Program-made: the position numbers and the translations under genes
Source: Phycisphaerae bacterium
Lineage (GTDB): Bacteria; Planctomycetota; Phycisphaerae; Phycisphaerales; UBA1924
Assembly: GCA_030432905.1 (NCBI GenBank)
Contig: JAUILU010000002.1
Location: forward strand, 572,084 to 636,083
Length of the DNA: 64,000 nucleotides
Reading direction: 5' to 3'
In this document: positions 22,747-52,124 of the stretch, piece after piece
Position numbering within the stretch: the first letter of the stretch is position 1
Layout of the letters: the number at the start of each line of letters is the position of its first letter
Notes under the pieces: model-generated
The model's database searches: none
Told to the model about the DNA's origin: nothing
The model's input: the letters and a program-made list of their open reading frames with translations, nothing else

Positions 22747-22768
22747 AAACCGATTCTTGTAGATTGCT

Positions 22769-22797
22769 TTGACTCACAGGCCGCGATCGCCGATACT
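22769..22797 (+). promoter_or_regulatory. Sigma-70-like promoter of the glnS leader
   Basis: TTGACT at 22769-22774 and GATACT at 22792-22797 are separated by exactly 17 bases, close to consensus in a GC-rich context. The predicted transcript start falls near 22804, at or one base before the ATG of the leader ORF at 22805. The leader peptide would then be leaderless or nearly so. The start point is inferred from spacing only. Confidence 0.6.
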
Positions 22798-22804
22798 TTC
22801 CGCC

Positions 22805-22867
22805 ATGAACCGCACGCAATCGCAATCAAGCAGCACGCAACAACGCCCGCAAGGGGCCGCTGTTTGA
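22805..22867 (+). CDS. Glutamine-rich leader peptide of glnS
   Basis: This 20-codon ORF ends in TGA at 22865-22867. Five of its codons are glutamine (positions 5, 7, 12, 13 and 16), and all five are CAA. It starts MNRTQSQSSST and continues QQRPQ. It lies just after a promoter-like pair and 33 bases before a strong terminator hairpin, ahead of the gene for glutaminyl-tRNA synthetase. Scarcity of charged tRNA-Gln should stall ribosomes on these codons. This matches the logic of peptide-leader attenuators of amino-acid genes, applied here to a synthetase gene. Translation is not proven. Confidence 0.6.
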   Translation: MNRTQSQSSSTQQRPQGAAV

Positions 22868-22900
22868 TATCGCGTCGGTGAAGAACTGATAGATGATCAT

Positions 22901-22934
22901 CCGGTCGGCCCAAGGGTCGGCCGGTTGTCTTTTT
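22901..22934 (+). terminator. Intrinsic terminator/attenuator upstream of glnS
   Basis: CCGGTCGGCC (22901-22910) pairs with GGTCGGCCGG (22915-22924) through ten base pairs, eight of them GC and two G-U wobbles. It closes a CAAG tetraloop and is followed by TTGTCTTTTT. It lies after the Gln-rich leader ORF and about 80 bases before the glnS start, so it would stop transcription before glnS unless disrupted. GGGCCG at 22854-22859, inside the leader ORF, is perfectly complementary to CGGCCC at 22906-22911 and could form a competing antiterminator helix. Confidence 0.7.
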
Positions 22935-23012
22935 GGACCGCCCCGGCCCGCGTCGCCCGCCCGATCGCACGTTTCCAAAGAGAACACCAGAGCACGCCAT
23001 TAGGGGCCAGTC

Positions 23013-24815
23013 ATGCATCTACGATCAGCCATGCCAGACGAATCAACCACAGCCGAGAGCCGGAACTTCATCGAGCAGATCATCGACGCCGACATCGCGT
23101 CCGGGAAGTGGGGCGAGCCGGGCGATCGGTCCGTCGTCACCACACGCTTCCCGCCCGAGCCCAACGGCTACCTCCACATCGGCCACGCCAAGGCCATCTG
23201 CCTCAGCTCGGGCCTCGCCGAGCAGTTCGGCGGGCGGTTCATGCTCCGCTTCGACGACACCAACCCAGCCAAGGAAGAACAGGAATACGTCGACTCGATC
23301 ATCGAAGACGTCCGCTGGCTCGGCGCCAACTGGGAAGGCGATGTGCGGTTCGCTTCCGACTACTTCCCCAGGTTCTACGACTGGGCCAAGGACCTCATCG
23401 AAAAGGGGCTCGCCTACGTCGACGAACAGTCGCCCGAAGAGATCCGCAAGAACCGCGGCAACGTCAACGAGCCGGGCGTCAACAGCCCGTTCCGCGACAG
23501 ACCAACCGAGGAATCGCTTGACCTGTTTGCGCGCATGAAGGCCGGCGAATTCAAGGACGGCTCGATGGTCCTCCGCGCCAAGATCGACATGACCTCGCCC
23601 AACATGAACCTGCGTGACCCCGTCATGTACCGCGTGCTCAACGCGCACCACCACCGCACGGGCGACACGTGGCACATCTACCCCATGTACGACTGGGCGC
23701 ACGGGCTCGAGGACTCGATCGAGGGCATCACCCACTCGATCTGCACCCTCGAATTCGAGAACCACCGCCCGCTGTACGACTGGTTCATCGACTCGATCAA
23801 CAAAGACCGCGCCGAGCCCATCCGTCACCCGCAGCAGATCGAGTTTGCAAGGCTCGAGCCGACGTACATCATCACCAGCAAACGCTCGCTCAAGCTGCTC
23901 GTTGACGACGGGCACGTCACCGGTTGGGACGACCCTCGCATGCCAACCGTCAGCGGCATGCGTCGCCGGGGCTACACACCGGAAGCCATCCGCGCCTTCG
24001 CCAAGGTCACCGGTGTCACGAAGTACAAAGGCTCGCACGACATCGGCCTGCTCGAAGCCGCCGTCCGAGATCACCTCAACGCCGAGGCCCCGCGCCGAAT
24101 GGCGGTTCTTGATCCGGTCAAGGTCGTCATCACCAACTGGAGCGAGCACGGCGACGAGAACCGGGTCGAATACTTCGACGCGATCAACAACCCGAACGAC
24201 GAAGCCGCCGGCACCCGGAAGGTCCCGTTCACGAAAGAGATCTACATCGAGCGCGAGGATTTCATGGAAGACCCGCCCAAGAAGTTCTTCCGCCTCGGAC
24301 CGGGCCGCGAGGTCAGGCTGCGCTACGCGTACTGGGTGACGTGCACCGGCTACGAAACCGACGACGCCGGCAACGTCACCGAGATCCACTGCACCTACGA
24401 CCCAGAAACCAAGGGCGGCAACTCGCCCCCGCCCGACGCCGAGGGCAACGTCCGCAAGGTCAAGGGCACCATCCACTGGGTCAGTGTCGAGCACGCGCTC
24501 GATGCCGAGGTCAGGCTCTTCGATCGACTCTTCACCGCAGAGCACCCGGCCAAGGCCCCGAAGGATGCGCCAGACAACTGGAGCTTCATGGCCAACCTTA
24601 ACCCAGAAGCGATGCAGGTCGTCACCAACGCCAAGCTCGAACCCGCGCTGGCAACAGCCGAGGGCGAACCAGACTGGCGCGACAGCATCCGACGCTACCA
24701 GTTCGAGCGCCTCGGCTATTTCTGCGTCGATCAGGATACTTCAGAATCCGGTACCCTGATCTTCAACCGAACCGCAACACTGCGGGATTCGTGGGCGAAG
24801 TCGAAGGGTAAGTAG
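23013..24815 (+). CDS. glnS: Glutaminyl-tRNA synthetase
   Basis: This enzyme charges tRNA-Gln with glutamine directly. The 600-residue class I protein has the GlnRS form of the first signature ([18 protein letters not shown]) and family-specific [19 protein letters not shown]. Its second signature is divergent and shows as [13 protein letters not shown]-terminal beta-barrel anticodon region follows, with [19 protein letters not shown] and YFCVDQD. The ATG at 23013 has AGGGG six bases upstream; a second ATG at 23031 is possible. All Gln codons I found in the gene are CAG. It sits downstream of the leader peptide and terminator at 22805-22934. Confidence 0.95.
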
Positions 24816-52050: not shown

Positions 52051-52124
52051 GTGACCGTAGCTCAGCTGGCTAGAGCACCGGGTTGTGATCCTGGAGGTCG
52101 CGGGTTCGAGCCCCGTCGGTCACC
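52051..52124 (+). tRNA. tRNA-His (anticodon GTG)
   Basis: A full cloverleaf can be drawn. The acceptor stem is GTGACCG with CGGTCAC. The D arm is GCTC..GAGC. The anticodon stem CCGGG/CCTGG holds loop TTGTGAT (anticodon GTG), and the T arm is GCGGG-TTCGAGC-CCCGT. The G at 52050 is the extra G-1 and faces the discriminator C at 52124, the tRNA-His identity pair. CCA is not encoded. A run CCTTTT follows and may terminate transcription. Confidence 0.95.

Follow-up and report, generated by a model that had tools for sequence, protein, structure and literature searches.

A predicted leader with serine codons ahead of glnS in a Phycisphaerae genome, and its counterparts ahead of unusual tRNA-Ser genes in relatives

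The element upstream of glnS

The window, a stretch of 64,000 nucleotides from a Phycisphaerae bacterium (contig JAUILU010000002.1, positions 572,084 to 636,083), carries glnS directly behind a compact leader, with no tRNA-Ser set between the two. Upstream of the leader lie gltX, a pentapeptide-repeat gene and a reductase gene of the old-yellow-enzyme (OYE) type. A preliminary description had listed a near-consensus promoter (TTGACT, 17 bp, GATACT), a 20-codon ORF with five Gln codons and a 10-bp GC-rich stem with a tail, followed by glnS. All of these parts were found, at 22769-22797, 22805-22867 and 22901-22934, with glnS at 23013; four Ser codons in the same ORF had gone unmentioned. The features of the locus are:

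22769..22797, forward strand: promoter-like sequence TTGACT-17-GATACT (TTGACT at 22769-22774, GATACT at 22792-22797, 17-bp spacer)
22805..22867, forward strand: leader ORF MNRTQSQSSSTQQRPQGAAV, 20 codons plus TGA; its ATG (22805) is at or adjoins the predicted transcript start
22825..22868, forward strand: predicted hairpin 1:2, in which 22825-22834 pairs with 22859-22868, that is, Ser codons with the ORF end
22826..22834, forward strand: Ser codon run TCA AGC AGC (codons 8-10); codon 6 encodes Ser as well
22838..22852, forward strand: Gln codons 12, 13 and 16; Gln also stands at codons 5 and 7, and all five are CAA
22854..22862, forward strand: predicted antiterminator strand 2, pairing with 22902-22911 with one bulged U
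22901..22934, forward strand: intrinsic terminator, with hairpin 22901-22924 (10 pairs, 8 of them G-C) and T-rich tail TTGTCTTTTT; its 5' arm is antiterminator strand 3
23013..24815, forward strand: glnS, glutamine-tRNA ligase (NCBIfam TIGR00440, 672 bits); conserved start probably at 23031
23020..23025, forward strand: -10-like box TACGAT, 5 nt 5' of the likely glnS ATG at 23031, possibly a leaderless promoter of glnS itself

The promoter hexamers alone are at chance level (one found in a 4-kb stretch against 0.7 expected). With 7 nt between the -10 box and the ATG, the predicted mRNA would be leaderless, its 5' end falling on or beside the start codon. The segment 22804-22935 folds with a minimum free energy of -51.4 kcal/mol (z -3.09 against shuffles), and the leader of G002, a relative of the same genus, gave z -2.87. 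At the Rfam gathering threshold the only match in the window was a tRNA at 52051-52124, and the leader matched no family. T-box riboswitches control aminoacyl-tRNA-related genes through tRNA charging; a T-box was ruled out at this threshold, no T-box model matching in the window, and sensing here would instead run through the translated ORF.

Leaders and tRNA-Ser genes in relatives

The layout was scanned for as a promoter, a start codon 4-12 nt past the -10 box, an ORF of 12-40 codons and a terminator within 110 nt. Twelve loci yielded only the window element and places in four relatives (G002, G268, G503 and G117, the last present in two overlapping loci), and the controls (both strands, 107 glnS loci, other genomes) yielded 0 matches in 903,581 bases. 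Such a scan would miss other layouts, as it missed the leader of G091 until the terminator condition was dropped. The second match of the terminator-free scan, L262, lies on the opposite strand to its tRNA array and was judged to be chance. A pattern of promoter plus terminator arm occurred in 3 of 163 family genomes, once each (the window's genome, G002 and G117), and its backwards control had no match in these three; beyond them, G091 is the fourth family genome with the leader. When 22747-23012 was compared by blastn with the 163 family genomes, the single match longer than 70 bp outside its own genome was in G002, at 22805-22954 (74% identity over 150 bp, terminator included), and nothing further of the query matched there. 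Short BLAST matches to the hairpin elsewhere were mostly a common family terminator form or chance, and among those outside the window's own genome the only leaders were G002 and L033/G117. Terminator variants CCGGYCGGCC..GGCCGGTTGTCTTTTT recur in the family (L018, L019, L020, L023, L024, L027) as a common terminator form.

The G002 leader keeps the TTGACT and GATACT hexamers, the 17-bp spacing, a 20-codon ORF MKCTQLQSSSSQSSPDWVAV and the terminator; the Ser run at 22826-22834 lies inside the longest block of the ORF that is identical between the two (GCAATCAAGCAG). The same hexamers and spacing occur in G117, from another genus, followed by a GTG-start ORF VIRILSSRSSSSSRRGRRVRVRIA, a terminator and then tRNA-Ser. 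G091, whose genus differs from that of G002, has a promoter with 17-bp spacing, a Ser-rich ORF MTFAPRSSSQSRQQARQAARVIV and a terminator with a weak T tail. The promoters of G268 and G503 are likewise spaced by 17 bp, and their ORFs are MKRFAAQERNSSMSWSQVGRPGRSRASG and MNTNRSSSHSRHEQEQSCKDCSEVAMR. The ORFs of G091, G117, G268 and G503 are longer than the 20 codons of the window. The six leaders have in common a start codon 6-10 nt past the -10 box and an ORF of 20-28 codons rich in Ser, but no single RNA fold. An attenuator-type leader with counterparts in five relatives is the likely reading of these sequences, and the element is rare. The preliminary description had made conservation of the ORF and terminator in relatives a test of its proposal; both do recur in five relatives, but there they stand ahead of tRNA genes and not directly ahead of glnS.

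In G002, G091, G117, G268 and G503 the leader heads tRNA genes that include unusual tRNA-Ser. The tRNA genes of G002 begin about 30 bp behind the terminator, and glnS follows only after them. ARAGORN read three G002 tRNA-Ser genes as CGA, GGA and GCT; the anticodon of the fourth, TGA, was read by eye, and this gene was matched by Rfam and by R1, a covariance model of these tRNA-Ser genes. None of the leader-linked tRNA-Ser genes of G002 and G117 was among the RF00005 matches at E up to 1e-3. Six such genes were searched against Rfam at E up to 1: two G002 genes matched tRNA-Sec (RF01852) best, with 45.1 and 42.5 bits, below the cut-off of 47, and the other four had no match. In their RNAalifold consensus (six sequences) the acceptor stem has 8 bp, the D stem 6 bp and the T stem 4 bp; the loop of the D stem is short and the variable arm long, and 17 of the 29 pairs are changed on both sides in at least one sequence. 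Allo-tRNAs are marked by an 8/4 (or 9/3) division between acceptor and T stem, and by this modelled fold the tRNA-Ser genes of the relatives are of the 8/4 type with a tRNA-Sec-like shape. Among ten allo-type tRNA-Ser genes examined, four, from three genomes, have the T loop ATCGTGC (including L017 1758-1844, L192 1401-1590 and L222 1501-1589), and the other six have TTCGANN.

R1 scored above 75 bits in 4 of 163 family genomes (four genes in G002, three in G091, one each in G117 and G048), and all remaining family matches among those listed reached at most 44 bits. Behind the leader stand four R1 matches in G002, three in G091, one in G117, three in G268 and two in G503, where Glu, Arg and His tRNAs lie between leader and tRNA-Ser. 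The window's genome (94.75% complete) gave no R1 match at E up to 1e-3 under stricter filters. An ordinary tRNA-Ser set (CGA, GGA, TGA, GCT) occurs elsewhere in both the window's genome and G002, so the leader-linked genes of G002 are a second set. Searches for tRNA-Ser(CGA) by DNA or by anticodon pattern were too insensitive.

At E up to 1e-8, R1 had matches in draws from the class (5 of 397 genomes), the order (15 of 390) and the phylum (17 of 216); these draws overlap, and with each genome counted once and the four family genomes added they give 34 genomes with R1 matches. The leader precedes R1-matched tRNAs in five of the 34 (G002, G091, G117, G268, G503). In the other 29, where the matches lie mostly in long mixed tRNA arrays, the scan found no leader; it covered flanks of 1.5 kb in the phylum set and more sequence in the other sets. 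Such arrays occur in a different family of the order as well as in other parts of the phylum. G048 is one of the 29 but has a short array, and no leader was found there; in this genome an allo-type tRNA-Ser(GGA) stands behind a degenerate tRNA-Ser(GCT)-like stretch of 39.7 bits (L220, 6565-6723). A mobile origin found no support: the leader-tRNA stretch of G002 had no match in plasmids or phages, and the tRNA pattern had none in viral contigs.

A separate observation concerns the heads of long tRNA arrays in the other family of the order (L259, L260, L263 and L265; L262 by eye). There an ORF of 65-81 codons, similar in its first residues (MTVKQHILNLFERTSCASLFG..., MTIKQHNLNHAERTQG...), starts about 260-340 bp before the first tRNA, and 12-15 different amino acids occur among its first 20 residues. 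From its sequence, this ORF may perhaps be a leader for an array with the whole tRNA set.

The order gltX, pentapeptide-repeat gene, OYE gene, leader, (tRNAs), glnS is common to the window, without the tRNAs, and G002; with G091 the order gltX, pentapeptide-repeat gene, leader, tRNAs, glnS is shared. No glnS was found in the stretches examined around the leaders of G117, G268 and G503, and in G003 and G004, of the window's genus, neither leader nor tRNAs were found before glnS in the stretches examined. In the simplest history, leader, tRNA-Ser set and glnS would form an old unit of the family; the lineage of the window would have lost the tRNA set, and in G003 and G004 the unit would have disappeared as a whole or come apart. 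No tRNA remnant was found between the window's hairpin and glnS (best score 4.0 bits). An apparent loss through misassembly is unlikely, because the tRNA genes of the relatives are not near-identical repeats.

Thirty-two glnS loci were also compared (the window, three of the same genus, the 27 best-scoring others of the family and G091; positions by tblastn). The preliminary description had looked to the glnS upstream regions of relatives for the same attenuator, and this expectation failed: the full layout lies within 600 bp directly upstream of glnS in the window only (1 of 32 loci), which rules out a general glnS element. G002 and G091 have the layout with tRNA genes before glnS, and the 600-bp range shows the terminator of the former and the ORF of the latter; the remaining 29 loci had no leader parts within 600 bp. 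Boxes like the -10 element stand 5-8 nt before the glnS ATG in L002 and L006 (TATCAT) and L003 (TATAGT), and 10 nt before it in G091 (TATCAT); L003 and L006 are of the same genus as the window and have such a box though they have no leader. A box with at least four of six positions at 4-9 nt before a start was present in 11 of 26 glnS loci, against 3, 7, 0 and 3 at four control distances; the other six of the 32 loci were left out, their N-terminal motif being missing or out of place. The glnS start in the window is likely the second ATG, at 23031: the first (23013) is not common to L003 and L006, and the box-to-ATG spacing also fits 23031. With -10-like boxes just before its start, glnS may be transcribed on its own. 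The leader may control glnS in the window's genome, but this is the least certain step of our reading.

Codons and competing helices in the six leaders

Codon excess was tested by the binomial distribution, with the composition of six window genes as reference, and by dinucleotide shuffles; shuffles also served for the pairing of the 3' part of the ORF (strand 2) with the 5' arm of the terminator (strand 3). Each line gives Ser codons (binomial p, shuffle p), Gln codons (binomial p, shuffle p) and shuffle p of the 2:3 pairing:

Window: Ser 4 (0.016, 0.03); Gln 5 (7e-5, 0.018); pairing 0.084
G002: Ser 6 (0.0003, 0.03); Gln 3 (0.0098, 0.27); pairing 0.17
G091: Ser 4 (0.027, 0.53); Gln 4 (0.0017, 0.002); pairing 0.001
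G117: Ser 7 (0.0001, 0.13); Gln 0 (1.0, 1.0); pairing 0.007
G268: Ser 6 (0.0025, 0.0125); Gln 2 (0.13, 0.11); pairing 0.025
G503: Ser 6 (0.002, 0.06); Gln 2 (0.13, 0.29); pairing 0.003

The shuffles weaken both excesses, and that of Ser is modest. By the binomial test Ser is in excess in all six leaders; Gln is in excess in exactly the three that are linked to glnS (window, G002, G091) and not in G117, G268 or G503. This tracking of glnS by Gln, three leaders against three, is at most suggestive. The codons thus fit the neighbouring genes, Ser with tRNA-Ser in the five relatives and Gln where glnS follows, if the leader indeed controls them. Since Ser is common to the six and the Gln excess is confined to glnS-linked leaders, the ancestral signal is likely to have been Ser, with Gln as a further signal at most. 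The charged tRNA-Gln that the preliminary description had proposed as the signal therefore keeps part of its case, the Gln excess in the three glnS-linked leaders, but Ser, not Gln, is what all six share.

The 2:3 pairing is possible in all six leaders, over 12 bp in G091 and 11 bp in G503; in G117 and G268 it spans 9-10 bp and includes a bulge or mismatch. It is not significant for the window or G002 taken alone; the combined Fisher p of 8.5e-7 for the six leaders is overstated, the limits having been set post hoc and the window and G002 being related. The proposal of a peptide-leader attenuator thus gains from the recurrence of the layout in relatives and from the possible competing helix, but in the window alone the antiterminator stays at p 0.084. 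A 1:2 helix between the first Ser codons and the ORF end can form in the window, G002, G091 and G117, and two of its pairs differ on both sides between G091 and G117. In G503 a later Ser codon sits in a helix of this type, and in G268 none of six or more pairs was found. The calculated energies are -20.1 kcal/mol for the terminator (3:4) and -13.2 kcal/mol for the antiterminator (2:3); they favour the terminator, so a switch would have to act co-transcriptionally. With a Ser codon of the run 8-10 in the A site, strand 2 would be free at a distance of 22-28 nt; this distance falls to 16 nt for Gln12 and to 4 nt for Gln16. These distances favour Ser, allow Gln12 and disfavour Gln16.

Proposed working, alternatives and meaning

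With somewhat more belief than doubt, we read the element as a predicted ribosome-sensing attenuator that likely served first an unusual second tRNA-Ser set, which is kept before glnS in G002 and G091 and was not found here. What is observed is the parts of the leader, where they recur, the order of the genes and the potential for pairing; the transcription start, the translation of the leader, stalling, read-through and the signal are deduced from them. On this reading the attenuator would first have controlled the second tRNA-Ser set plus glnS by sensing Ser, with Gln perhaps added. Transcription would begin at the start codon of the leader, with a ribosome trailing the polymerase. Easy reading of Ser codons 8-10 (and, in leaders linked to glnS, perhaps of Gln12) would let the ribosome reach the stop codon; the terminator hairpin would then fold and stop the transcript at about 125 nt. 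A ribosome stalled at these codons would cover strand 1 (22825-22834); strand 2 (22854-22862) would stay unpaired and could form a helix with the 5' arm of the terminator (22902-22911), and the polymerase would read through. Read-through would switch on the tRNA-Ser set in the relatives; in the window only glnS remains downstream.

A leader that has been idle since the loss of the tRNA-Ser set, giving at most a short terminated RNA while glnS is transcribed from the promoter before ATG 23031, is rather unlikely, yet we give it more weight than the other alternatives. It agrees with the searches that found no allo-type tRNA in the window's genome and no tRNA remnant between hairpin and glnS, with the -10-like boxes of the window and of the leaderless L003 and L006, and with G003 and G004, which lack leader and tRNAs before glnS in the stretches examined. 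Against it, the leader has kept its promoter hexamers, its ORF length, its hairpin and its terminator, and G002 matches 22805-22954 with 74% identity where the rest of 22747-23012 gave no blastn match; the loss may have been recent, though.

We consider it improbable that the leader is, as first described, an attenuator by which glnS responds to charged tRNA-Gln. The five CAA codons (binomial p 7e-5) and the Gln excess shared with G002 and G091, and not with the three unlinked leaders, speak for this; but leaders with 0-2 Gln codons are laid out alike and head tRNA genes, tRNA-Ser among them, 29 of 32 glnS loci have no leader and two more have tRNA genes between, and a ribosome at Gln16 would cover strand 2, to which Gln12-13 are only 13-16 nt away. 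Still less probable is a separate gene for a small RNA of about 125 nt (or a small protein), in which the ORF would be incidental to a structured RNA: the compact promoter-terminator unit, the strong folds (z -3.09 and -2.87) and the conserved DNA in G002 would suit it, but the six leaders share start-codon position and Ser-rich ORF instead of one fold, no Rfam family matches at the gathering threshold, and in each of the five relatives found the element heads tRNA genes.

Within the preferred reading of a Ser-sensing attenuator, a decoding-failure alarm is a tentative idea that we hold with more doubt than belief. The Ser leader would sense that Ser codons are no longer read, because of starvation or because a nuclease has destroyed the ordinary tRNA-Ser, and would turn on a spare tRNA-Ser set, which in G002 has anticodons for all Ser codon boxes. 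Where glnS came to lie behind the spare set, Gln codons would have been added to the sensor, and in the window, with the spare set gone, the sensor would have been left to, or taken by, glnS.

Peptide-leader attenuators are textbook switches of amino-acid operons of the trp, his and ilv type. These likewise combine a short ORF with repeated regulatory codons, competing helices and a terminator (principle outlined in PMC1183508), but they head biosynthetic enzymes, whereas the leaders of the relatives directly head tRNA genes; the start codon at the predicted transcript start and the several kinds of Ser codons also set the present leader apart. A glnS leader predicted in Shewanella and listed as a tRNA-synthetase leader (PMC2659441) is also a cis RNA element before glnS, and the passages of that source on it mention no peptide and no link to Ser or to tRNA genes. 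Searches of open-licence literature gave no title or abstract opening on a peptide leader before tRNA-Ser or allo-type tRNA genes, nor on a Gln leader peptide of glnS. The original allo-tRNA work is reportedly that of Mukai et al. in 2017. As described in a review (PMC7609411), allo-tRNAs have the same 8/4 fold, tRNA-Sec-like shape and long variable arm as the tRNA-Ser of the relatives; the hosts named are Clostridia, Proteobacteria and Acidobacteria, and most have non-serine anticodons. The genes reported here differ in lying in planctomycete-type genomes, in their Ser anticodons (CGA, GGA, GCT and TGA in G002) and in being headed by a leader; the main text of the review does not mention leaders, attenuation, tandem, cluster or planctomycetes, and it treats the role of many allo-type tRNAs in their own hosts as an open question.

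For the window, a story leading from Gln to glnS, plausible but incomplete, is replaced by one with an evolutionary history. A Ser-sensing leader offers a testable idea of when allo-type tRNA genes are switched on. If it is true, a leader before a second, non-canonical tRNA-Ser set would mean that bacteria can adjust their decoding apparatus to codon-specific stalling.
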